Assembly: GCF_000689395.1 (NCBI RefSeq)
Contig: NZ_HG966617.1
Span: 411,521-475,520 of the forward strand
DNA length: 64,000 nt
Origin: Candidatus Phaeomarinobacter ectocarpi
Lineage (GTDB): Bacteria; Pseudomonadota; Alphaproteobacteria; CGMCC-115125
Direction of reading: 5' to 3'
Shown in pieces: positions 4,991 through 41,498 of this stretch. Position numbers and translations under genes: made by a program. The notes beneath the pieces are model-generated. The model made no database searches. It was not told the DNA's origin and saw nothing but the letters and a program-made list of their open reading frames with translations. The stretch's first letter is position 1. Every line of letters begins with the position of its first letter.

Positions 4991-5299
4991 ATGACAGGGT
5001 TCCGCATCCTTTCAGCCATTCTCGGCCTCGCCTTCGCAGGCTCCATCATTTGGGGCTTTGCGGACGGCAGGTCGGTAGTTCCCTTGCTGGAGATCATGCT
5101 CGCCGAACCCTGGGGCGTCGTGACCCTTGCGGATCTCTATCTCGGCTTTGTCCTCGCAGCAGGATTGATCATCGTTCTGGAACCCAGCAGGACAACCGGT
5201 GTCCTGTGGGGTCTCAGCGTCGTCATCCTCGGGAATGTCGTCACTGCCGCGTGGATCGTTTTCCGGTTGCCCGGCGTGCTGGCGCGGCTGCGGCCTTAA
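4991..5299 (+). CDS. Small three-helix membrane protein
   Basis: 102 residues starting at the base after the SDR stop codon, so tightly coupled to it. Three hydrophobic stretches (about 4-22, 42-63, 67-90) are predicted membrane helices; the linkers carry the acidic 'EIMLAEPWG'. It resembles small uncharacterised inner-membrane proteins (DUF1475-like). Its stop overlaps the stop of the convergent acyl-CoA dehydrogenase gene (shared TTAA at 5296-5299). Confidence 0.7.
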   Translation: MTGFRILSAILGLAFAGSIIWGFADGRSVVPLLEIMLAEPWGVVTLADLYLGFVLAAGLIIVLEPSRTTGVLWGLSVVILGNVVTAAWIVFRLPGVLARLRP

Positions 5300-9395: not shown

Positions 9396-10421
9396 TCAGG
9401 CGGCCGGTTCGTCCGACACCCGCACCAGCAATTTGCCGATATTTTCCCCGGTAAACAGCCGATCAAGCGCCTTGGGCGCAGTCTCCAGCCCGTCCACGAT
9501 GTCCGTGCGGTATTTGAGTTTGCCCTCCGCCAGCCACTGGCCCATTTCAGCCTGGCCTTCAGCAAAGCGCTCGAGAAAATCAATGATGATGAACCCTTCC
9601 ACCCGGGCCCGCTTCATCAGGATGTTGCGGAACATGTAAGGCCCCGGCACATCTCCTTCTGCGTTGTAGGTAGAGATGAGACCACACAGCGGAATGCGTG
9701 CATTGTCATTGATCAGGGTAAGGACGGCATCGAGGATTTCGCCCCCGACATTTTCAAAGTTGACGTCAATGCCGTTGGGGCACTCGCGCCTGAGAGCCTC
9801 GAGCACGTTTTCCTTTTTGTAGTTGATGCAGGCATCAAACCCCAGATCATCCACAACCCACTTGCATTTTTCATCCGACCCGGCGATGCCCACAACACGG
9901 CAGCCCTTGATCTTGGCAATCTGCCCCACCGTCGAGCCAACAGCGCCCGCCGCCGCAGACACCACGACCGTTTCACCCGCCTTGGGCTGGCCGATTTCCA
10001 GCAGCCCGAAATAGGCCGTCATCCCCGTCGCGCCGAGCACACTCATGAACGCGTCCAGCGGAATGCCAAGCCCGGCCGGTATCTTGGACACGCCCGTGCC
10101 GTCCGACACCGTGTAGTCCTGCCAGCCGCCAAGGCCCGGCACCACGATGTCGCCCACGTCAAACCCATCCAGGTTGGACTGCTCCACGACGCCCAGGGTG
10201 CCACCGCGCATCACATCGCCGATCTCCACCGGCGGCATGTACTGGTCCATGTCGCTCATCCAGATGCGGTTGGTGGGATCCAGCGACAGATAAATCGTAC
10301 GGATCAGAATTTCGCCGTCACCCGCTTCGGGCTTTGGCGCATCCACCAGTTCCAGATCGCCATCCGAAATGTCGCCTTCAGGCCGCTGCCGCAACACCCA
10401 CTGCCGATTTGAATTACGCAT
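9396..10421 (-). CDS. NADP-dependent MDR oxidoreductase (prostaglandin-reductase type)
   Basis: 341 residues from the ATG at 10421, preceded by GGAGGAA. A zinc-free medium-chain reductase: the start 'NRQWVLRQRPEG', 'LSLDPTNRIWM' and 'PGLGGWQDY' are typical of the leukotriene/prostaglandin-reductase and curcumin-reductase group; the cofactor motif is 'SAAAGAVGSTVGQIAK'. It likely reduces the C=C bond of an enone using NADPH, a detoxification role. Stand-alone transcription unit. Confidence 0.88.
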   Translation of the reverse strand: MRNSNRQWVLRQRPEGDISDGDLELVDAPKPEAGDGEILIRTIYLSLDPTNRIWMSDMDQYMPPVEIGDVMRGGTLGVVEQSNLDGFDVGDIVVPGLGGWQDYTVSDGTGVSKIPAGLGIPLDAFMSVLGATGMTAYFGLLEIGQPKAGETVVVSAAAGAVGSTVGQIAKIKGCRVVGIAGSDEKCKWVVDDLGFDACINYKKENVLEALRRECPNGIDVNFENVGGEILDAVLTLINDNARIPLCGLISTYNAEGDVPGPYMFRNILMKRARVEGFIIIDFLERFAEGQAEMGQWLAEGKLKYRTDIVDGLETAPKALDRLFTGENIGKLLVRVSDEPAA

Positions 10422-10949
10422 CGTTGTTCCTCCGATTGGATTTGGTTTGTTCATTTTTCAGAACCGATGGTGACTCGCACTCCTGCCTTTGGCCAGCACC
10501 AAAAGCTCCGCCGGACACAAATCCGCGAAAGCATGAGGGAGAACGGGAGCGCTGCCGTGGCAGCCCGGCCGTTGTGATCAAGAACTGTATCGAGTGCCGC
10601 TCGTAAGCAGCGCTCCCGTTACGGATGGTCTTCGGCTGGGGCACAAGCAATGGCGCGAGGCGTTACCTCGCAGTGTTCCACCGCAGCCCTGCTACCGGTC
10701 ACACATGCATTCCGACACCGGTCTGGCCATGTGTCGCGTCCGCATGCACGTCCACCGGGGCGATCTTACTTTACGCGCCGGGCCGAGCCTTTGCCGCCTC
10801 ATGGTCACCTGCGTTCGTTACCCGCAAGCAGCCCACAAGGCCATCCGCCCCCATGCCCAAGCCCGGACGGTCCGGGATGCCCTCAAGCACGAGGCGCACC
10901 CAGTATGAGGCCGCCAAGAAGACCGGGGATAGATTCCTGAAAAAACTTT
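10422..10949. other. Gene-poor intergenic stretch
   Basis: No ORF here has family features or a good ribosome-binding site; those present read low-complexity composition. It holds a perfect 14-base inverted repeat (10542-10555 against 10607-10620, listed separately). The rest shows nothing I can assign. Confidence 0.5.
10542..10620. repeat. 79-bp element with 14-bp perfect inverted ends
   Basis: AACGGGAGCGCTGC at the left end is perfectly complementary to GCAGCGCTCCCGTT at the right, enclosing 51 bases. It could be a long hairpin in RNA (small RNA or terminator-like) or the remnant of a miniature inverted-repeat element. No other copy is seen in the window. Confidence 0.55.
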
Positions 10950-11040
10950 CCGTAGCCCCGGACGTGATCCGGGGCCTACTCGCAAACAATCAACTGCACA
11001 GCGACCGCGAGTGGACCCCGGATCAAGTCCGGGGATGCGG
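10950..11040. repeat. Palindromic repeat doublet, family A
   Basis: Two inverted copies of a 34-base palindromic unit (10950-10983 and 11007-11040) flank a 23-base spacer. Each has a CCCCGGA..TGATCCGGGG stem; the outer side reads CCGTA/CCGCA and the inner side ends in ACTCGC. It is the same unit as at 17101-17191, and its flanks match the repeats around the GIY-YIG gene. Translated, this family gives the familiar spurious 'SPDLIRG' peptides. Confidence 0.85.
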
Positions 11041-11100
11041 GTATTTAAGGGAGGCGCTGGCCTGAATTGGCTTGCTGGGGCCAATCCCAAGCAGAGTTTT

Positions 11101-11505
11101 CTAGGTTCTGTTTTGGGTCATTTGCATTATGAAGCGACCCATCACCGTGAGGCGCTGGCTGTTCAAGTGCTTTTCTGCAGATGTCGGCAACAGAACACCG
11201 CCTCTGTTGTCAATGAAGATGCTGCGCCCGTCGGGGAACTCAAACTTTGCCCTGACAGCCATCCCATCGAAACTTCCAGCCCCAGAAGCATCAATCATAT
11301 TTAAGGCTCTTGTGAGCCTCCAATCATCCTTATGCACCAAACCAATGCGCATTGGATCGGAAATGGAGTCCACGGTCACCGGAAACATGGTCGCCAGCCC
11401 AAAGGGTATGTAGTAGATCTTCACTAGCCTCTCACTCCGATTTCCATCGGAGCAAGAGCTGAAGAGTATGATCGCGAGAGCCGCTAGCAGATATCTGAAG
11501 GTCAA
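11101..11505 (-). CDS. Putative lipoprotein
   Basis: 134 residues from a TTG at 11505, three bases after the sppA stop. Residues 1-18 form a lipoprotein signal with lipobox 'LFSSC'. The mature part carries a conserved-looking motif around 'DGRSIFIDNRGGVLLP'. I do not recognise a family. The gene is less GC-rich than its neighbours. Its position suggests co-transcription with sppA and a function at the envelope. The start codon is uncertain because no clear ribosome-binding site is present. Confidence 0.65.
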   Translation of the reverse strand: MTFRYLLAALAIILFSSCSDGNRSERLVKIYYIPFGLATMFPVTVDSISDPMRIGLVHKDDWRLTRALNMIDASGAGSFDGMAVRAKFEFPDGRSIFIDNRGGVLLPTSAEKHLNSQRLTVMGRFIMQMTQNRT

Positions 11506-11508
11506 TGT

Positions 11509-13278
11509 CTACCGCATCTCCGGCACACGGGCCCGGGCCTCCAGACCACGACCGTCTGCGGCGAGTTCCTTCACCAGCGCGCTGACTTCGGGATGGTCTG
11601 CAATCGTTGACATGGTCACCAGCGTTCTGGCCACGGCTTCTGCGTTGAGCGCAAAGCCGAACAGTTCTTCCTGGAAGGTGCGCGGTTTAGGGAAGGTGCG
11701 CAGCTGAACCGGTGCGCCTTCCTCAAGACCCACCACTTCGCGGGCCGCTTCAATCGTCGTGCTGAACCCGCCCAGCTTGTCCACCAGGCCCTTGTCCATG
11801 GCGTCCACGCCGGCCCAGACACGGCCACGGGCAATCTCTTCGGTTTCAGCAGCAGACAGATTGCGTCCGCCAGCCACACGGTCCTTGAAGTCTTCATACG
11901 CCGTTGAAAGCCATGCGGTAAATCGCGCCCGCTGGGGATCGCTGAAGCGCGTATCCATGGCCCAGATGTCCGCATTGTCGTTTGTCGAGACCGCATCCAC
12001 ATTGACGCCGATCTTCTCAAACAATCCGCCTACGGAGAATTTCGCACCGATCACGCCGATGGACCCTGTCACTGTTGTCGGGTGCGCCACGATGACGTCT
12101 GCCCCGGCGGGAATGTAGTAGCCGCCGGATGCTGCCACCGATCCCATGGAGGCGATGACGGGAATGTCGCGGGCCTGCACGGCGCGGATCGCGTCCCACA
12201 CCTGGTCGGAGGCTGAGGCTGATCCACCCGGTGAATCAATGCGCACCACAATGGCTTTCACCTCTTCGTCGTCCGCAGCATCCAGAATGGCGTTGGCCAT
12301 GGTGTCCGAGCCGATCATCGGTTCGCCACCAAAGGGACCCATGGGCGGAGATTCACCGGACACGATGGCGCCCTCGCCATACACAACCGCAATCACGTCG
12401 CCTTCACGGGAAGTAGCCTCTGCAGCCGCATAGCTTGCCAGCGACACAAAGTCGGCGTCATCGCCAGCTGCAGCCAGCACCAGGTCAGCCACTTCGCGTT
12501 CATAGGCCAGCTTGTCGATGAGCTTTGCTTCAACCGCTGCCACCGCCCCAAAGGGCGCAACAGCGAGTGCTGCATCAAGGTCAGCGGCGCTCATGTCGCG
12601 GCCCGCCGTAATGCTGTCAGCGATGCTGGCATAGATCACATCCACCAGCCGCTGGTTGGCTTCGCGCTGGGGCGCGCTCATCTGCGTATCCGTAAAGGTG
12701 TCCATTGCACCCTTGTATTCGCTGAACGCCACTTTCTCGGCGGTGACGCCAATCTGGTCCAGCGCGTCGCGGGCATAGGTCAGCCGCGCACTCAGGCCTG
12801 CAGGCATGAAGCTGCCGGTCGGCTGCATCCAGATCGTGTCCGCCTGCGCCAGCACCTGATAGTCGCCCAGCGCTTCAGGAGCGATGTCCTGGGTGTAGCC
12901 ATAAACCGGTTTGCCTGACGCCTTGAACGGCGCCATCGCTTCCAGAATTTCATTGGCGGTGGTCGAGCCCACAAACCCCATGCCGCCGCGAATGTAGAGC
13001 GCTTCCACGGTGTCGTCCTCAGCCGCCTGCCTCAGCCCGTCATGCAGGCTGGCCAGCGTCAGGACGTCATATCCGTCAGCGAAGGCAAAGAAGTTCTGCA
13101 CCGGCTGCTGATAGACCGGGTCCGCCAGATCAATCAGCACCACCTTGCGCTCGGGCAAGGGTTCCTGCTCCGGCGTCACCGATGACGCCACCATGGCCAC
13201 CAGAACGACGGGGATAATGAACACCGCAATCAACAAGGCGGTCAAAACACCGGCGATGGTTATGAAGAACTGACGCAT
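11509..13278 (-). CDS. sppA: Signal peptide peptidase SppA, 67K type
   Basis: 589 residues, the long double-domain form of the inner-membrane signal-peptide peptidase. Residues 8-32 form the N-terminal membrane anchor. The catalytic dyad is split as in E. coli: Lys189 in 'SEYKGAMD' in the first half and Ser384 in 'GSVAASGGYY' in the second. 'RIDSPGGSASASDQ' is the strand preceding the nucleophile. It degrades cleaved signal peptides in the membrane. A lipoprotein gene follows, and proline iminopeptidase lies upstream on the same strand. Confidence 0.93.
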   Translation of the reverse strand: MRQFFITIAGVLTALLIAVFIIPVVLVAMVASSVTPEQEPLPERKVVLIDLADPVYQQPVQNFFAFADGYDVLTLASLHDGLRQAAEDDTVEALYIRGGMGFVGSTTANEILEAMAPFKASGKPVYGYTQDIAPEALGDYQVLAQADTIWMQPTGSFMPAGLSARLTYARDALDQIGVTAEKVAFSEYKGAMDTFTDTQMSAPQREANQRLVDVIYASIADSITAGRDMSAADLDAALAVAPFGAVAAVEAKLIDKLAYEREVADLVLAAAGDDADFVSLASYAAAEATSREGDVIAVVYGEGAIVSGESPPMGPFGGEPMIGSDTMANAILDAADDEEVKAIVVRIDSPGGSASASDQVWDAIRAVQARDIPVIASMGSVAASGGYYIPAGADVIVAHPTTVTGSIGVIGAKFSVGGLFEKIGVNVDAVSTNDNADIWAMDTRFSDPQRARFTAWLSTAYEDFKDRVAGGRNLSAAETEEIARGRVWAGVDAMDKGLVDKLGGFSTTIEAAREVVGLEEGAPVQLRTFPKPRTFQEELFGFALNAEAVARTLVTMSTIADHPEVSALVKELAADGRGLEARARVPEMR

Positions 13279-13341
13279 GATACTGCTCTCGCTTGGTCAA
13301 AGGTGCCGCGCAAAGGGCGGGCAAACTTCTAGATATGTGGG

Positions 13342-14325
13342 CTACCTGAACTTGTCTGTGGCCGTGATGAACTCGTGAATGATGCCCGGCTCTGTTGCTG
13401 TGTGGCCGGCGTCGGGCACGATCTTCAATTCTGCCTCCGGCCGTGCCTGTTTCAGTGCCCATGCTGTCATGACCGGGGTTACCACGTCGTAACGACCCTG
13501 AACCATGACGCAGGGAATGCCCCTGAGCTTGTGCGCATTGGCAATGAGCTGGCCGTCCGCTTCAAAAAAGCCGTCATTGATAAAGTAATGACATTCGATG
13601 CGGGCAAAGGCCTCGGCAAAATCATCTGCGCCAAAGCGCGCTTCGCGGTCCGGGTCAGGCAGCAGGGAGAGGGTTGAGCCTTCCCATGTGCTCCAGGCGC
13701 GCGCCGCCTCAAGACGAACCTCAGCGTCATCGCTGGTCAGCCGTTTGTAGTAGGCGGCAATCATGTCGCCGCGCTCGGCGTCGGGAATCGGCGCCACATA
13801 TTTTTCAAACGCTTCTGGATAAAGCGCCGCCGTGCCGTTTTCGCCGAGGCGGCCCGCATAAAACCAGTCCAGTTCCACCTTGCGCAGGGTGAAGATGCCG
13901 CGCAGCACCATTTCGGTCACCCGCTCCGGGTGGGTTTCCGCGTAGGCCAGCGCCAGGGCAGAGCCCCATGAGCCACCCGTGACCTGCCATTTATCAATGC
14001 CCAGTTCCTCGCGCAGCTTTTCAATGTCCGCCACCAGGTCCCAGGTCGTGTTCTCGCGCAGATCCGCATAGGGCGTCGATTTCCCACAGCCGCGCTGGTC
14101 AAACAGGATGATGCGGTAGGTATCGGGATCATGGCTGCGGCGCATGGTCGGGTTGGAGCCTCCCCCCGGGCCGCCATGCAGCACCAGCGCCGGCTTGCCG
14201 TCCGGATTGCCGGATTCCTCATAATAGATCTCGTGGATGTCCGAGACCTTGAGGCGACCGGTGCGGTAGGGCGCAATCTCTGGATAATTATCCCGGCGTG
14301 GGGTTGTGGAAGACATATCAGGCAT
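13342..14325 (-). CDS. pip: Proline iminopeptidase
   Basis: 327 residues from ATG 14325 (14316 is an equal alternative; neither has a clear ribosome-binding site). The frame upstream is unrelated to the family. An S33 alpha/beta hydrolase that removes N-terminal proline from peptides: 'RTGRLKVSDIHEIYYEESG' start, oxyanion motif 'HGGPGGGSNP', 'FDQRGCGKSTP', nucleophile 'GGSWGS', and catalytic Asp/His in 'QGRYDVVTP' and 'DAGHTATEP'. All family hallmarks are present. Confidence 0.93.
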   Translation of the reverse strand: MPDMSSTTPRRDNYPEIAPYRTGRLKVSDIHEIYYEESGNPDGKPALVLHGGPGGGSNPTMRRSHDPDTYRIILFDQRGCGKSTPYADLRENTTWDLVADIEKLREELGIDKWQVTGGSWGSALALAYAETHPERVTEMVLRGIFTLRKVELDWFYAGRLGENGTAALYPEAFEKYVAPIPDAERGDMIAAYYKRLTSDDAEVRLEAARAWSTWEGSTLSLLPDPDREARFGADDFAEAFARIECHYFINDGFFEADGQLIANAHKLRGIPCVMVQGRYDVVTPVMTAWALKQARPEAELKIVPDAGHTATEPGIIHEFITATDKFR

Positions 14326-14474
14326 CGGCTGCGGCAGGCTCCCCAGAAGGCTTAAGGCTGGATGATCAAGCGCCAGTTTGGCACGGAAATGCGCCGCTTC
14401 CACGGCATAGTGCGCACACCCCCCATATAGGGGCACCCAGCGCACCAACCCACCCCTCTTAACGGGGATAGACT

Positions 14475-14483
14475 TGTGGATAA
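14475..14483 (-). promoter_or_regulatory. DnaA box upstream of nrdA
   Basis: TGTGGATAA on the plus strand is the reverse of the perfect DnaA box TTATCCACA. DnaA is known to regulate nrd genes in several bacteria; one box by itself is weak evidence. Confidence 0.45.
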
Positions 14484-14561
14484 GTCGGGCGTGACAGGTG
14501 ATTTGCTCTTGCCGATGTTAACGTATTGCACCCATAGGTGGAGGGATTTGCCGGTCCCGAG

Positions 14562-14598
14562 CCACTATATGTTGTGTTTGGCGCCCTAAATATGGTGG
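14562..14598 (+). promoter_or_regulatory. Pair of NrdR boxes upstream of nrdA
   Basis: CCACTATATGTTGTGT (14562-14577) and GCCCTAAATATGGTGG (14583-14598) fit the palindromic NrdR-box consensus acaCwATATwGtgt. Their centres are 21 bases apart, two helical turns, as expected for co-operative NrdR binding. NrdR represses ribonucleotide reductase genes when dATP is high. Confidence 0.75.
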
Positions 14599-14745
14599 TC
14601 TGACCGGCCAGCGTTAACCAATTCGATTTGCAGTGGAAAAAAGTTTTTGCGCCCAATCCCATTAACCAAGCGGCGGAGCGCTGATTTGCAAACCTGTCAA
14701 TGGGGTTTGTTCGCCCTTTTTTCGTTAACAGACTGACACAATCAC

Positions 14746-14773
14746 TTGACGGTAAAACACCTGCAGATACTAT
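14746..14773 (+). promoter_or_regulatory. Sigma-70-like promoter for nrdA
   Basis: TTGACG (14746-14751), a 16-base spacer and TACTAT (14768-14773) give a good housekeeping promoter. It would start transcription near 14780 and leave a leader of about 300 bases. It lies about 150 bases downstream of the NrdR boxes, so another promoter nearer the boxes is possible. Confidence 0.5.
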
Positions 14774-14779
14774 ATCTCG

Positions 14780-15077
14780 TGTTGGCAGCCGGTTCGGCGG
14801 ACTTCAAGAGGGGAGTCCAAAGCACCACGGGGGAGTGAAATTCTCTTCCGGGCCTGCCAGTCCGGCCAGAACGGTCGTTTCATAGACGTTTAGGCGTGTT
14901 TTCCGAGGTGTATTTCTCGGTGCGGGAGAGGTGTGCGCGGTGTCCAGCCGATGTGAGAAGCCCCAGGGGGCTCCGGCTGGATCAGGTGCACGGGATAGTT
15001 TGCCAATTTAGGCACACGGTTTTTTACAAGGCATGCGGGCCTTGACCGGGTACCATCGAGGGGGAGCAGAAGAAGTC
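14780..15077 (+). ncRNA. Structured 5' leader of nrdA
   Basis: About 300 untranslated bases with three clear hairpins: GGACT/AGTCC (14799-14818), CCGAG/CTCGG (14903-14920) and a two-part stem CCAGCCG...CGGCTGG enclosing AGCCCC/GGGGCT (14944-14980). Purine-rich unpaired segments lie between. No coding frame is supported. It could be a regulatory leader or riboswitch-like element; it does not match the cobalamin riboswitch core that I know. Confidence 0.45.
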
Positions 15078-16973
15078 ATGTTTCAGACGCAGGCAGTTCA
15101 GTTTGAGAAGCGCGGCCGGGTAGAGGTAGATCGCACCCGCGACGCCCTGCTGACCGATTTTGGCCGTGAAACCCTCGTGGACCGGTACTTGATGCCGGGC
15201 GAGAGCTTCCAGGACCTGTTCGCGCGCGTCGCGTCTTATTACGGCGACGACGATGCCCACGCCCAGCGCATCTATGACTACATCTCCAAATTATGGTTCA
15301 TGCCGTCCACGCCCGTGCTCTCCAATGGTGGCACCGAGCGCGGCCTACCCATTTCCTGCTTCCTGAACGAAGCAAATGACAGCCTCGACGGCATTGTCGG
15401 TCTGTGGAACGAGAATGTGTGGCTCGCCTCCAAGGGCGGCGGCATCGGCTCCTACTGGGGCAATTTGCGCTCCATCGGTGAGACGGTCGGCGGCGTTGGC
15501 AAGACATCGGGCATCATTCCCTTCATCCGCGTGATGGATTCGCTGACACTCGCGATCTCTCAGGGCTCGCTGCGTCGTGGCTCGGCTGCTGTCTATCTCG
15601 ACATCAACCACCCGGAAATCGAAGAGTTCATCGAGCTGCGCCGCCCCACCGGTGGTGACCCCAACCGCAAGGCACCCAACCTGCACCACGGCGTTGTGAT
15701 CTCAGACGCGTTCATGCGCGCTGTAGAGAACGACGAAGAGTGGGCGCTCGTGAGCCCGAAAGACGGCGCCGTCATGCGCTCCGTCGGTGCCCGCGATCTG
15801 TGGATCCGCCTGCTCATGGCCCGCATCGAAACGGGCGAGCCCTACATGCTGTTCGGCGACCACGTGAACAAGGCCGTGCCCGAGCACCACAAGCTCGCCG
15901 GCCTCAACGTGAAGATGTCCAACCTGTGCTCCGAGATCACACTCCCCACGGGCATGGACCATCTGGGTGAAGAGCGCACCGCTGTGTGCTGCCTCTCCTC
16001 CGTCAACGCGGAACTCTATGACGAATGGTCCGGCGAAGAGCTCTTCATCGAAGACATCATGCGCTTCCTCGATAACGTCCTGCAGGACTTCATCGACCGC
16101 GCACCGGACGCCATGTCCCGCGCCCGCTATGCCGCAGAGCGTGAACGCTCCGTTGGTCTGGGCGTCATGGGTCTGCACTCCTACTTCCAGTCCAAGATGA
16201 TCCCGTTTGAAAGCGTGATGGCGAAGGTCTGGAACAAGCGGATTTTCCAGCACATTGACGAGCACGCAACAGCCGCCTCGCAGAAGCTGGCCAAAGAGCG
16301 CGGGCCGTGCCCGGATGCTGCTGATTACGGCATCATGGAGCGCTTCTCCAACAAGACAGCCGTCGCACCAACCGCGTCCATCTCCATCATCTGCGGGGGT
16401 ACGTCCGCCGGCATCGAGCCCTTTGCGGCCAACGCCTACACCCACAAGACCCTGTCAGGCTCCTTCAGTGTACGGAACAAGTACCTGAAAATGCTGCTCG
16501 CAGAAAAAGGCATGGACGACGCAGACACCTGGTCCTCCATCACCATCAATGGCGGCTCTGTCCAGCACCTCACCTTCCTGAGCCAGGACGAGAAGGACGT
16601 GTTCAAGACCGCCTTCGAACTGGATCAGCGCTGGGTCGTGGAACATGCCGGGGACCGGTCAGAGCACATCGACCAGTCCCAGTCCGTCAACGTGTTCCTG
16701 CCCGCAGACGTGCACAAGCGCGACCTGCACCAGATTCACATGCTGGCCTGGAAGCGCGGCGTGAAGTCGCTCTACTACTGCCGGTCCCTGTCGATCCAGC
16801 GGGCTGAAAAGAAAGAAGAAGCACCGCTCGTCGCAGCCAATGTCGAAGTCGCCCAGCTGCCGCTTCGCCAGCTCGACGATCTACCGCTGGCCGCTGCCGC
16901 CGCCGATGGCCAGGCAGTTGCCATCAACCCGGCAGAAACCAACGACTACGACGAGTGCATCGCCTGCCAGTAA
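15078..16973 (+). CDS. nrdA: Ribonucleotide reductase class I alpha subunit, no ATP-cone
   Basis: 631 residues reducing NDPs to dNDPs together with NrdB. ATG 15078 follows GGGGGAG; a longer frame from 15033 is possible. Active-site residues are visible: Cys94 ('PISCFL'), Asn282/Cys284/Glu286 ('SNLCSEI', the thiyl-radical site), Cys304, the radical-path tyrosines in 'SLYYCRS' and the C-terminal reductant pair C627/C630 ('CIACQ'). The protein begins directly with the barrel domain and lacks the roughly 90-residue ATP-cone, so dATP overall-activity control by that domain is absent. Confidence 0.95.
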   Translation: MFQTQAVQFEKRGRVEVDRTRDALLTDFGRETLVDRYLMPGESFQDLFARVASYYGDDDAHAQRIYDYISKLWFMPSTPVLSNGGTERGLPISCFLNEANDSLDGIVGLWNENVWLASKGGGIGSYWGNLRSIGETVGGVGKTSGIIPFIRVMDSLTLAISQGSLRRGSAAVYLDINHPEIEEFIELRRPTGGDPNRKAPNLHHGVVISDAFMRAVENDEEWALVSPKDGAVMRSVGARDLWIRLLMARIETGEPYMLFGDHVNKAVPEHHKLAGLNVKMSNLCSEITLPTGMDHLGEERTAVCCLSSVNAELYDEWSGEELFIEDIMRFLDNVLQDFIDRAPDAMSRARYAAERERSVGLGVMGLHSYFQSKMIPFESVMAKVWNKRIFQHIDEHATAASQKLAKERGPCPDAADYGIMERFSNKTAVAPTASISIICGGTSAGIEPFAANAYTHKTLSGSFSVRNKYLKMLLAEKGMDDADTWSSITINGGSVQHLTFLSQDEKDVFKTAFELDQRWVVEHAGDRSEHIDQSQSVNVFLPADVHKRDLHQIHMLAWKRGVKSLYYCRSLSIQRAEKKEEAPLVAANVEVAQLPLRQLDDLPLAAAAADGQAVAINPAETNDYDECIACQ

Positions 16974-17027
16974 GGCTGTCGGCCGAGGCCGGGCGTCAGG
17001 TCCGGGCGTCAGGTCCCAAACATTCGA

Positions 17028-17056
17028 AAAGCCTCCCCACACCGGGGAGGCTTTTT
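17028..17056 (+). terminator. Rho-independent terminator after nrdA
   Basis: AAGCCTCCCC pairs with GGGGAGGCTT across a short loop and runs into TTTTT. It would separate nrdA transcription from nrdB. Confidence 0.85.
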
Positions 17057-17100
17057 GCGTTGGAGGCATGCCGCTCAGGTTTTCGCTCGAGACAATCTCT

Positions 17101-17191
17101 CCGTGTCCCCGGACTTGATCCGGGGCCTACTCTCGGACCCGTCACACCGCAGCAACCGCGAGTGGACCCCGGATCAGGTCCGGGGATACGG
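17101..17191. repeat. Palindromic repeat doublet, family A
   Basis: Two inverted copies (17101-17134 and 17158-17191) of the same 34-base unit as at 10950-11040, again with a 23-base spacer. Stems are CCCCGGACTTGATCCGGGG and its near-inverse. It sits in the nrdA-nrdB gap. Confidence 0.85.
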
Positions 17192-17234
17192 CAAAGAGAA
17201 CTGGTCGGGCCCCGCGCTTACAATATGTTGTCAG

Positions 17235-17341
17235 CCGCCATCCTCCGGCTTGGTGACCCTTTAGCCTTCCGGCTCGACCGGAGGGGTGGGATTCAGGCAG
17301 CACCCGCCATCTGGATTGTCCGGTTAAACCGGACAATGGCG
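17235..17341. repeat. Composite palindromic repeat, family B
   Basis: About 107 bases bounded by CGCCAT and ATGGCG. It contains one CCGGCTCGACCGG-type stem after 'CTTGGTGACCCTTTAG' and one perfect hairpin ATTGTCCGG-TTAAA-CCGGACAAT. Related copies are at 23769, 41395, 46997 and 51193. Confidence 0.85.
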
Positions 17342-17367
17342 CTGTTTGGGTGTGTGTGCCCGTGTGC

Positions 17368-17416
17368 CCACTATCGGTAGTGACAAACTGCGTCCAAAAC
17401 ACACAATATGGTGGGC
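17368..17416 (+). promoter_or_regulatory. Pair of NrdR boxes upstream of nrdB
   Basis: CCACTATCGGTAGTGA (17368-17383) and ACACAATATGGTGGGC (17401-17416) resemble NrdR boxes; centres are 33 bases apart, about three helical turns. The second box shares its ATATGGTGG half with the nrdA box. This suggests nrdA and nrdB are co-regulated though separately transcribed. Confidence 0.65.
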
Positions 17417-17507
17417 GTGCGCCCCGGTTCGCGCTATGTAAATGTTAACAACATTTCGCCCGTGACTCGCACGCCCATCTCGCACGCACTTATCGGAACG
17501 CAAGCCC

Positions 17508-18470
17508 ATGACCCTTCTTGATGAACGCCTCACCTACAAGCCCTTCCGGTATCCCTGGGCCTATGAAGCTTGGCTCACCCAGCAGCGCATTCACTGGCTG
17601 CCGGAAGAAGTGCCCATGGCGGAGGACGTCAAGGACTGGCATCACAAGCTCGACGACAAGGAGCGCAATCTCCTCACGCAGATTTTCCGCTTCTTCGTGC
17701 AGGCCGATGTGGAAGTGAACAACTGCTACATGAAGAACTACATGGGTGTGTTCAAACCCACCGAAGTTCTGATGATGCTCTCGGCATTCTCGAACATGGA
17801 AACGATCCATGTGGCCGCCTACTCGCATCTGCTTGATACGCTGGGCATGCCGGAAGTCGAATACGAAGCCTTCCTCAAATATGCCGAGATGAAGGACAAA
17901 TACGACTTCATGCAGGAGTGGGGCACGGAGACAAAGTCAGACGTCGCCAAGACCCTGGCCGTGTTCGGCGGCTTCACCGAAGGCGTGCAGCTGTTTGCAT
18001 CCTTTGCCGTGCTGATGAACTTCCCGCGCTTCAACAAGATGAAGGGCATGGGCCAGATCGTCACCTGGTCCGCCCGCGATGAGAGCCTGCACTGCAACTC
18101 CATCCTGCGCTTGTTCCGCACCTGGGTGGATGAGTTCCCGGACTGCTGGGATGAGCAGACACAGCGCGACGTCTACAAGGCCTGCGAAACCATCATCCAC
18201 CACGAAGATGCCTTCATCGACCTGGCGTTTGAAATGGGTGGCGTCGAAGGCCTCGATGCCCAGGGCGTCAAGGACTACATCCGCTACATCGCCGACCGCC
18301 GCCTGAGCCAGATCCGCCTGCAGCCCATCTACGGCATCGAGAAGAACCCACTGCCCTGGATGGACGAAATGCTCAACGGCATCGAGCACACCAACTTCTT
18401 CGAAAACCGCGCCACGGAATATTCCAAGGCATCGACGCGCGGCTCATGGGAAGATGCGTTCGCGGACTAA
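17508..18470 (+). CDS. nrdB: Ribonucleotide reductase class I beta subunit
   Basis: 320 residues, the radical-generating ferritin-like subunit. The iron ligands and radical tyrosine follow the class Ia pattern: Glu98, His101 and Tyr105 in 'METIHVAAYSH' (E-x2-H-x3-Y); the second ligand set is in 'SARDESLHC' (E and H). The C-terminal tail 'ASTRGSWEDAFAD' is the acidic/aromatic segment that docks to NrdA. There is no N-terminal ATP-cone. It is 534 bases after nrdA with its own NrdR boxes and repeats between, so it is not in a tight operon. Confidence 0.95.
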   Translation: MTLLDERLTYKPFRYPWAYEAWLTQQRIHWLPEEVPMAEDVKDWHHKLDDKERNLLTQIFRFFVQADVEVNNCYMKNYMGVFKPTEVLMMLSAFSNMETIHVAAYSHLLDTLGMPEVEYEAFLKYAEMKDKYDFMQEWGTETKSDVAKTLAVFGGFTEGVQLFASFAVLMNFPRFNKMKGMGQIVTWSARDESLHCNSILRLFRTWVDEFPDCWDEQTQRDVYKACETIIHHEDAFIDLAFEMGGVEGLDAQGVKDYIRYIADRRLSQIRLQPIYGIEKNPLPWMDEMLNGIEHTNFFENRATEYSKASTRGSWEDAFAD

Positions 18471-18505
18471 GGCAAGCTAGAGTTGGGAAAACGCGGATCA
18501 TAATT

Positions 18506-18562
18506 CCGTATCCCTCCTCCTCCGACTTGATCGGGGGATTGACCGGAGGGCCCACTCACGGT
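18506..18562 (+). repeat. Palindromic repeat, left flank of GIY-YIG gene
   Basis: Begins CCGTATCCCTCC and ends GGAGGGCCCACTCACGG, the same borders as the copy at 19003-19040 and, inverted, at 18874-18910. The stem is expanded here by an extra nested TCCGACTTGATCGG. It ends eleven bases before the nuclease start codon. Confidence 0.8.
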
Positions 18563-18572
18563 GCCATTGGGC

Positions 18573-18860
18573 ATGGCTTTCTATGTGTACATCATGTCCA
18601 ACCGCATGCACGGCACGCTTTATGTCGGCCACACGGATGACCTTGTGCATCGCGTGGAAACCCACAAGACCGGCACTGTTCCCGGCTTCTCGCAACAGCA
18701 TGACCTGAAACTGCTCGTTTACTACGAGCTTCATGACAGTCGGGAAGCCGCCCGTCGCCGGGAACGTCGTCTGAAACACTGGCTCCGCGCCTGGAAAATA
18801 AAGCTGATAAATGAAGCCAATCCTGAGTGGCGCGACCTGGCAGAAGACCTCAACCAGTGA
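18573..18860 (+). CDS. Small GIY-YIG nuclease
   Basis: 95 residues of the UPF0213/URI type. ATG 18573 gives the family start 'MAFYVYIMSN'; earlier in-frame codons lie in the repeat. Motifs: 'YVYIMSN' (GIY equivalent), 'GTLYVGHTDDLVHRVETH' (YIG, catalytic Arg and His) and the closing 'NPEWRDL' with Glu. The domain cuts DNA using one metal ion in characterised relatives; this small group has no known job. It lies between inverted copies of a palindromic repeat with only 10-14 bases to spare on each side, which is the point of interest. Confidence 0.88.
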   Translation: MAFYVYIMSNRMHGTLYVGHTDDLVHRVETHKTGTVPGFSQQHDLKLLVYYELHDSREAARRRERRLKHWLRAWKIKLINEANPEWRDLAEDLNQ

Positions 18861-18873
18861 TCGCGTAACGACG

Positions 18874-18910
18874 GCGAGTAGACCCTCCGGTCAAGCCGGA
18901 GGGACACGGG
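18874..18910 (-). repeat. Palindromic repeat, right flank of GIY-YIG gene
   Basis: Inverted relative to the left-flank copy: GCGAGTAGACCC, a CTCCGG/CCGGAG stem, then GGGACACGGG. It starts 13 bases after the nuclease stop codon. Confidence 0.82.
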
Positions 18911-19002
18911 TTTGGTGTCGATTCTGGTGAAGATCACAGAAACCCTGAAGGCTGAAGCGGCAGGCGGCAATGTAATGTCGCGAACCACCTATTCGCCCAC
19001 CA

Positions 19003-19040
19003 CCGTATCCCTCCGGCTTGACCGGAGGGCCCACTCGCGG
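19003..19040 (+). repeat. Palindromic repeat, third copy near GIY-YIG gene
   Basis: CCGTATCCCTCCGGCTTGAC followed by CGGAGGGCCCACTCGCGG, direct orientation to the copy at 18506. Together with 18874-18910 it makes a gene-free inverted doublet with a 92-base spacer. Confidence 0.82.
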
Positions 19041-19106
19041 CGCCACGTGGCAAGGTGTTGGACGTTCACAGCATGACATCCAGCATTCATGGCACCGCCT
19101 AGGCCT

Positions 19107-19733
19107 TTACGCCGCCAACGCCCCCAGCTTCTCAGCCTTGCCGATCCAGCGACCAATCTTTTTGTCGCTGGCAAGCTTCACGGAGCCCCACTGCAGGATG
19201 TTCTTGGACTTGATGCCGCAGAAATCCAGCACCTGGTTCTTGATCACGCGACGACCGGGGCTGCGATAGAGCAGGGTGTCGAGCAGGGGCGGGGTGTCGG
19301 AGGTGATGATTGCGTCGGCCGTCTTGCCTTCCAGCAGCTTGTCCCATTTGACGCCGCGCTGGTGATATTTGAACGCAAAGCCCGGCGTCAGCGCACGATC
19401 CAGCACCGCCTTGGCCTTGGTCGGCATCGCGCCCCACCAATAGGGGTGGACGATCATCACGTGATCCGCCCAGCGCATATTGGCCTGCCACTGCAGCAGA
19501 TCGGGCTCCAGCGCCTTCCCCCCTGATCCAACGGCGGCCTTGGTATTGTCCGCATAGGGATCATCATAGCCCTCAAAATTGAGATCAAACGCCATGTCGC
19601 TCAAATCCATGCGGCGAATCTCCGCGCCCTGGCGCGCGGCGCCGGCGGCATAGGCATCGGCAATACCGCTGTTCAGGGTGTTGGCTTTGGGGTGCGCCAC
19701 CCAGATGAATATTTTCTTCGCTGAATTGCTCAT
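19107..19733 (-). CDS. NAD(P)H dehydrogenase (quinone), flavodoxin-like fold
   Basis: 208 residues from ATG 19733, nine bases after CAGGAG. It belongs to the NQO1/KefF/MdaB flavin reductase family: 'IFIWVAHPKANTLNSGIAD' phosphate-binding start, 'DHVMIVHPYWWGAMPTKAKAV' flavin site, and 'FAFKYHQRG' followed by 'KLLEGK'. It probably reduces quinones with two electrons to avoid radical formation. It is divergent from a TetR-type repressor gene, with palindromic operators between them, so it is the likely target of that regulator. Confidence 0.88.
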   Translation of the reverse strand: MSNSAKKIFIWVAHPKANTLNSGIADAYAAGAARQGAEIRRMDLSDMAFDLNFEGYDDPYADNTKAAVGSGGKALEPDLLQWQANMRWADHVMIVHPYWWGAMPTKAKAVLDRALTPGFAFKYHQRGVKWDKLLEGKTADAIITSDTPPLLDTLLYRSPGRRVIKNQVLDFCGIKSKNILQWGSVKLASDKKIGRWIGKAEKLGALAA

Positions 19734-19759
19734 GTGACCGGCTCCTGCTGCGGCTTTCA

Positions 19760-19818
19760 CTTGACACCATGTCAAGTTGACGTGGTGACAAGTAGGCGGT
19801 ACTTTACATCATGTCAAG
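19760..19818. promoter_or_regulatory. Three TetR-operator-like palindromes
   Basis: CTTGACACCATGTCAAG (19760-19776) is a perfect 7-3-7 palindrome. Imperfect copies follow: GTTGACGTGGTGACAAG (19776-19792) and CTTTACATCATGTCAAG (19802-19818, overlapping the tetR start). They lie between the divergent quinone reductase and tetR genes. Confidence 0.75.
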
Positions 19819-20398
19819 TGAGCAATCAGATACCCGCAGCAAAATTCTTCAATCCGCCAGCGATCTACTCGAGAACGGCACGCCAGGAGACGTCCGCATG
19901 TCGGATGTCGCCAAGGCTGCCGGTATCAGCCGGCAGGCGCTGTACCTGCATTTTCCCAACCGCGCTGATCTCCTGATCGCCACCGTGCGCTATCTCGATC
20001 AGCTCAATAATGTAGATAAGGGCCTGGCCCCCAGCCGGGCCGCCGGGTCAGGCATTGAGCGCCTGGAGCTCTACATTGCCGCCTGGGGCAACTACGTCCC
20101 CAAGATTTACGGCAATGCCCGCGCCCTCATGGCCATGAAGGATACGGACGACGCCGTCGCCGCCACGTGGGAAGACCGCCAGCAGGCCATCCGCCATGGC
20201 TGCGAAGCGGCCATCAAGGCCTTGAAAAAGGACGGAACCCTGTCACCGGACCACACGGTCAAACAGGCGACCGACATCCTGTGGATGCTCGTCTCCATCC
20301 AGAACTGGGAACACCTGACCAAAACCTGTGGCTGGTCCCAGAAGCGCTACGTGGAGACAACCACCCGGATGGCCAAAACCCTTTTGGTGGTCGAGTAG
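19811..20398 (+). CDS. TetR family transcriptional regulator
   Basis: 195 residues. The N-terminal helix-turn-helix is canonical: 'SKILQSASDLLENGTPGDVRM' then 'VAKAAGISRQALYLHFPNRADLL'. The C-terminal ligand domain is variable; 'WEDRQQAIRHGCEAAIKAL' is helical. It probably represses the divergent flavodoxin-fold reductase gene and itself through the palindromes at 19760-19818, one of which covers its own start codon. Confidence 0.9.
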   Translation: MSSEQSDTRSKILQSASDLLENGTPGDVRMSDVAKAAGISRQALYLHFPNRADLLIATVRYLDQLNNVDKGLAPSRAAGSGIERLELYIAAWGNYVPKIYGNARALMAMKDTDDAVAATWEDRQQAIRHGCEAAIKALKKDGTLSPDHTVKQATDILWMLVSIQNWEHLTKTCGWSQKRYVETTTRMAKTLLVVE

Positions 20399-41394: not shown

Positions 41395-41498
41395 GCCATC
41401 CCCCGGCTTGGTAACCCTTTAGCCCTCCGGCTCGAACGGAGGGGTGGGATCCATGCAGCGATTGCCCTTGGATTGTCCGGTTAAACCGGACAATGGCG
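41395..41498. repeat. Composite palindromic repeat, family B
   Basis: GCCATCCCCCGGCTTGG, CCTCCGGCTCGAACGGAGG stem, a spacer and the hairpin ATTGTCCGG-TTAAA-CCGGACAAT ending in GGCG. It lies between the convergent dehalogenase and membrane-protein genes. Confidence 0.85.

Follow-up and report, generated by a model that had tools for sequence, protein, structure and literature searches.

Comparison of 127 homologous loci shows that the members of a small GIY-YIG nuclease subfamily are typically encoded between inverted copies of their own palindromic repeat, which in most cases is a CGTC-REP. On the basis of these arrangements, we consider it probable that nuclease and repeat form a functional pair, a 'GIY-YIG REPtron', in which the nuclease processes the hairpins of its cognate repeat and drives their spread.

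CGTC-REPs have been described as palindromes with the tag CGTC, TGTC or CCTC, a stem of 8 or 9, a loop of 4 or 5 and the tail CCA, which occur mostly as dimers (Di Nocera, De Gregorio and Rocco, 2013; PMC3733652). They are mainly alphaproteobacterial, being found in all orders of this class, and include the neisserial dRS3 and the rickettsial RPE-4 and RPE-6 elements (PMC3733652). The 2013 paper, in which GIY-YIG proteins are not mentioned, reported no transposase gene associated with the repeats (PMC3733652); as a transposase was not found, it left open how the repeats spread. A nuclease of 95 residues probably fell outside its search for transposase genes. The repeat family was known before, albeit without a partner; in the open-access literature, we found no paper that links GIY-YIG proteins to REPs.

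The REPtrons of the REP/RAYT (TnpA-REP) type consist of a gene between inverted REPs, are accompanied by many gene-less doublets, and their gene is seldom multiplied (PMC8266576, PMC6006769). The system described here resembles them in that the nuclease gene lies between inverted repeats that are scattered over the genome, with many doublets and a rarely multiplied gene, but differs in its enzyme, a GIY-YIG protein without an HUH/Y1 domain, and in its repeat tag, which is GTC and not GTAG. A sequence-only reading of the DNA had proposed a nuclease-repeat pair related to, yet distinct from, REP/RAYT; this proposal is strongly supported by the conserved flanking, by the co-occurrence of gene and repeats and by a search of the genus that detected no RAYTs.

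The nuclease gene and the repeats around it

The stretch analyzed here, referred to as the window, comprises 64,000 nucleotides of the Candidatus Phaeomarinobacter ectocarpi genome (3.42 Mb; G000 in the following); G001, G002 and G003 denote sister species of the same genus. The nuclease gene is located on the forward strand at positions 18573–18860 and encodes 95 amino acids plus a stop codon (ATG at 18573, stop at 18858–18860). Its product belongs to the GIY-YIG domain family, with a Pfam match to PF01541 clearly above the cut-off (3.6e-13; 50.1 bits, cut-off 22.6) and intact Tyr, Arg, His, Glu and Asn catalytic positions; Y6, T21, R27, H31, E64 and N83 are invariant in an alignment of 21 homologs. 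The dN/dS values of the nuclease, mostly 0.02–0.18, point to purifying selection.

AlphaFold2 predicts a confident fold (pLDDT 92), for which Foldseek places UPF0213 proteins and Slx1 near the top of its matches, only the first of them below E = 0.001; the modelled fold thus resembles that of the branched-DNA nuclease Slx1. By sequence, the nearest solved structures are 1zg2, 1ywl and 1yd6, from the stand-alone GIY-YIG proteins of the UPF0213 type and UvrC. The fold is also shared with GIY-YIG homing endonucleases such as I-TevI, but, compared with I-TevI and Slx1, the nuclease has no intron, no separate DNA-binding domain within its 95 residues and no Slx4-type partner that we could see. None of the NCBIfam models matches the protein, a phage search with it returned no match, the block at 18400–19140 has no match in plasmids, and a search of window positions 10000–20000 with Rfam yielded no RNA family.

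The left flanking repeat (18506–18559, forward strand; CCGTATCCC...CCCACTCAC), recognized in the sequence and by its inverted match to the right copy, ends 13 bases upstream of the ATG, with its tag CCGTAT outside and its tail CCCACTC towards the gene. The right repeat is an inverted copy (18874–18909, reverse strand; stem CCCTCCGG/CCGGAGGG, loop CTTGA), which begins 13 bases past the stop codon and was also retrieved by the genome-wide pattern search described below (place 430396). About 20 extra bases, which form a further palindrome core (CCGACTTGATCGG), lie within the stem of the left repeat. Its match to the right copy is therefore weak (score 29), and the present-day gene unit has one damaged end. 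A third copy follows at 19003–19038 on the forward strand (place 430528 in the pattern search). Since its 3' side, ACTCGCGGCGCCACGTGGCA, is similar to the bases that separate repeat and start codon in the G001 ortholog, it is possibly a solo left end.

Two gene-less doublets with the same borders are found at 10950–11040 and 17101–17191. The first consists of a forward repeat at 10950–10983 and a reverse one at 11007–11040, the latter also a pattern match, and is common to G000 and G002. The second, in the interval between nrdA and nrdB, consists of a forward repeat at 17101–17134 and a reverse one at 17158–17191, both pattern matches, and is absent in G002. In all these points, namely the 95-residue GIY-YIG gene between inverted repeats, the third copy behind it and the two doublets, our analysis agrees with the sequence-only reading.

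The window repeats have either an 8-bp stem with the loop CTTGA or a 7-bp stem with a 5-nt loop, the tag CCGTRT and the tails TCCACTC and CCTACTC (YCYACTC). In stem and loop, in having a short unpaired tail and in their arrangement as opposed dimers, they correspond to CGTC-REPs; by contrast, their tag reads CCGTRT in place of CGTCAT and their tail is of the YCYACTC form, while the repeats of a second nuclease gene in this genome carry CGCC. Because CCGTRT does not fit CGTC, TGTC or CCTC, we regard the window repeats as a divergent relative and not as strict members of the CGTC-REP family.

Repeat types and gene copies in the genus

Searching the window genome with the pattern TCCC..GGGNCYACTC yielded 52 matches, which represent about 47 distinct real sites, as opposed to six with the reversed pattern as control. 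Two sister species have 64 and 41 matches and the third, a fragmented assembly, has nine (controls 7, 4 and 5), whereas the pattern stays at control level in 112 other alphaproteobacteria. This count, suggested as a check by the sequence-only reading, is more than chance would give in the window genome. Twelve of the 15 adjacent repeat pairs less than 400 bp apart in the window genome are doublets with facing tails, and five of these share an offset of 54 bp. The commonest stem type in this genome is CCCCGG; the stem beside the nuclease gene, CCCTCCGG, is a different one, which counts against the proposed pair.

The window genome encodes a second GIY-YIG gene (L001, G000:C1:1620073), the only other model match at E ≤ 0.001, which is flanked by palindromes of other types: CGCCAT..ATCCATRCAG, and ATTGTCCGGTTTAACCGGACAAT with CGCC and CCA ends. 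A repeat of this flank type (CGCCATTGTCCGGTTTAACCGGACAATCCA) is also present in the window, on the reverse strand at 17312–17341; this is a copy of the ATTGTCCGGTTTAACCGGACAAT palindrome, for which seeds also occur near 41475, 47050 and 51258. G001 and G002 have three and two GIY-YIG genes, respectively, each between palindromes with stems of their own, which mostly match across the gene. The repeat with the ACTC tail is common to the window gene and one gene each of G001 and G002, the repeat with the CCGCT tag is common to the genes L035 and L064, and L001 and L065 have types of their own, so that tree and flanks together show gene clades in agreement with repeat types.

The abundance of the repeats follows the same lines. 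There are 27 CCGCT-type repeats in G001 and eight in G002, where the cognate gene is present, compared with four in G000 and none in G003, where it was not found; likewise, CGCC-type repeats number five in G000, the genome with the cognate gene, and 0, 3 and 0 were counted in G001, G002 and G003. Judging by these counts, the link between gene and repeat type is strong but leaves relics. The stem, tag and tail of the repeat vary along with the gene. Near position 2065100 of G002:C1 (L166), opposite window position 5293, a pair of CCGCT-type repeats is inserted beside a conserved gene end; the window has none there.

RAYTs were considered as mobilizers of the window repeats and rejected for this genus: RAYT-type HUH/Y1 transposases (PF01797) were found in none of four genomes of the genus by a search that was positive in E. 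coli and Caulobacter.

Conservation of the arrangement across bacterial phyla

The 127 homologous loci with both flanks available were taken from the whole genomes of relatives and from GTDB genomes, in which a pattern scan based on the protein alone identified 80 named loci. In 61% of these 127 loci, which come from many phyla, an inverted repeat with a score of at least 30 connects the 150-bp flanks on either side of the gene. The same is true for just 1.5% of 532 other open reading frames in the same loci, for 9% of cross-paired flanks and for 2.6% of 155 control genes that lie between two intergenic stretches, so that chance or a general richness in repeats can be ruled out as the cause of the pairing. 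The GIY-YIG genes of other subfamilies in the same kind of genomes provide a further comparison: none of ten such remoter genes, in contrast to the subfamily described here, has flanking repeats, and in a tree of 130 proteins they are set apart from the repeat-associated clade (support 97/89).

The flanking palindromes are chiefly of one kind, with the tag YGTC, a stem of 8 or 9 bp, a loop of 4 or 5 nt and the tail CCA, and thereby share tag, stem, loop, tail and dimer layout with the published CGTC-REPs. Among 101 flanking repeats, 98 have the stem/loop combinations 8/4, 9/5 or 8/5, with the tails CCA or CTA. CGTC-REPs, here including the tag that the window repeats lack, lie within 150 bp of the gene in 73% of the 127 loci, compared with 3.9% of the 155 intergenic-flanked controls; their density is 5.17 per kb within this distance and falls to 0.31 per kb in intergenic DNA beyond 1 kb from the gene. 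Scrambled tags and tails gave 0–3 matches, the true motif 220. Furthermore, the repeats are oriented, with the tag outside and the tail towards the gene in 145 cases and the opposite in 52. The conserved flanking that the sequence-only reading suggested looking for in other genomes with this subtype is thus borne out. About a quarter of the homologs have no detectable canonical repeat nearby.

Individual loci illustrate the arrangement. On plasmid AZO_p3 of Azospirillum lipoferum 4B (L205, 2489–2782), the gene has a REP dimer on each side and lies between sufB and sufC, interrupting the suf operon. In Neisseria gonorrhoeae, it lies between dRS3-type repeats (CGTCATTCCCGC..-type), which fit the CGTC-1 class that has been equated with dRS3 (PMC3733652). 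Further repeat-flanked examples are found on Novosphingobium aromaticivorans pNL2, in Sphingobium and in Aeromonas caviae. The plasmid-collection records of N. gonorrhoeae (L206, 2.17 Mb) and A. caviae (L211, 4.94 Mb) look like misfiled chromosomes.

Co-occurrence of gene and repeats

To relate gene and repeats at the genome level, we combined a protein profile (A1) with a covariance model of the repeat (R1), counting a genome as repeat-rich from five repeats upwards. Of 289 evenly drawn alphaproteobacterial genomes, 72 have both the gene and at least five repeats, 20 the gene only, 31 the repeats only and 166 neither (odds ratio 19, p 4e-25), in a comparison that controls partly for phylogeny, covers the best 25–30 or fewer repeat candidates per genome and includes drafts, in which genes can be missed. 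At least five repeats are thus found in 72 of 92 gene-bearing genomes and in 31 of 197 others. With approximately one genome per family (118 genomes), the corresponding numbers are 30, 5, 11 and 72 (odds ratio 39, p 6e-14), and in a phylum-wide sample of 239 genomes 47, 15, 21 and 156 (odds ratio 23, p 2e-20). For the part of this sample that is not alphaproteobacterial, the agreement holds for all assumed subset sizes between 100 and 140.

The association has exceptions in both directions, in that no strong match to the gene was found in 31 of the 103 repeat-rich alphaproteobacterial genomes, and 16 gene-bearing ones have no repeat according to R1 among the best 25 or fewer candidates scored. 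The sequence-only reading had named two outcomes that would speak against a pair, repeats equally abundant in genomes without the nuclease and a lack of conserved flanking; we observe neither.

Presence and absence in related genomes

Both the gene and the doublets are polymorphic in presence and absence between species. In G002, whose nrdB is 95% identical, the interval between nrdB and the next gene has neither the nuclease nor the repeats. In G001, the ortholog (L034/L066, compared with window 17508–18909) occupies the same site beside nrdB, but is inverted relative to nrdB, which would fit recombination between the inverted repeats as well as a separate insertion. In addition to the doublet between nrdA and nrdB, three more doublets are found only in G000 and one only in G002, all with syntenic flanks. 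Inverted ends and sites differing in presence and absence can thus be seen, but the flanks are about 90% identical and too diverged for target duplications to be recognized; due to this divergence of about 10%, the insertion ends cannot be fixed to the base. In the Sphingobium strain set and its megaplasmids, doublets differ between strains as well, with fuzzy borders. Among these data, there is no empty doublet whose unique flanks match those of a gene-filled one, and the blocks A1/B1 of G000 and G002, considered as a comparable site, proved non-syntenic.

A possible mechanism and its alternatives

In the mechanism that we propose, the nuclease would recognize its cognate repeat when this is folded into a hairpin or cruciform and, during replication or repair, would cut beside the tag or the tail; the broken, folded doublet would then be copied to new intergenic sites by host repair. 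Since a hydrolytic GIY-YIG nuclease cuts DNA but does not join it, host repair would have to complete the process. The process would usually yield doublets, with only rare movement or duplication of the unit that bears the gene, and the role of the nuclease would parallel that of RAYTs for GTAG-REPs. Across bacterial phyla, we slightly favor the view that the nuclease is the dedicated enzyme for spreading and maintaining CGTC-REPs and constitutes, through hydrolytic cutting of hairpins and host repair, a second, independent REP-amplifying machine unrelated to RAYT. If this is true, unrelated nucleases have become partners of REP-type repeats on at least two occasions. For the spread of CGTC-REPs, which are widespread and include dRS3 in Neisseria and the RPEs in Rickettsia, the nuclease is a good candidate agent, and with a specific, conserved, catalytically intact nuclease clade between these repeats, the question of their spread becomes directly testable.

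Alternatively, the nuclease could be a free-standing gene of the homing type, a passenger that cuts empty doublets spread by other means and is copied into them by gene conversion. GIY-YIG is a classical homing-endonuclease fold, the gene occupies the position of the doublet spacer, so that gene-less doublets look like empty sites, and repeats without the gene are common. Moreover, in one locus (L144), the entire repeat-gene-repeat unit is tandemly duplicated, at 88% identity. On the other hand, the repeats have no other known agent, and the search of the genus detected no RAYTs. Furthermore, in a genome with eleven members of the subfamily, the ten paralogs examined are 44–68% identical and are thus no recent home-ins; their flanking repeats differ where recognizable. 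Finally, the shift of tag and tail with the gene clade suggests mutual dependence. We therefore consider this scenario unlikely, though not negligible.

The position of the repeats raises a different possibility. Upstream repeats peak 10–20 bp before the start codon and downstream repeats 0–10 bp after the stop codon, as might be expected if they acted as transcription attenuators or terminators and the pairing reflected expression control or sheltering rather than mobility; indeed, REPs are thought to work as RNA hairpins (PMC3733652). Such a regulatory or insulating role is improbable as the explanation of the pairing, since it does not account for the scattered gene-less copies, the matched stems on both sides, the co-occurrence or the presence/absence polymorphism. 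Even less probable is a role of the nuclease in repair, as a structure-selective enzyme that removes or resolves repeat cruciforms and stalled forks and is retained by cells with many such repeats, the flanking repeats being incidental remains of horizontal transfer: its Slx1-like fold, the strong purifying selection and the co-occurrence of gene and repeats would be in line with this, but such an enzyme would need neither to sit between its own repeats, tags outside, in most loci, nor to have separate paralogs beside different repeat types.

The proposed nuclease-repeat pair may extend beyond the repeat types described so far. On a Planktothrix plasmid (L212, 2501–2785) and in an Omnitrophota metagenome-assembled genome (L156, 9389–9682), repeats of the GTCATTCTGAGYGAARCGAAGAATCT type flank the nuclease, an indication that this other family is part of the same system.
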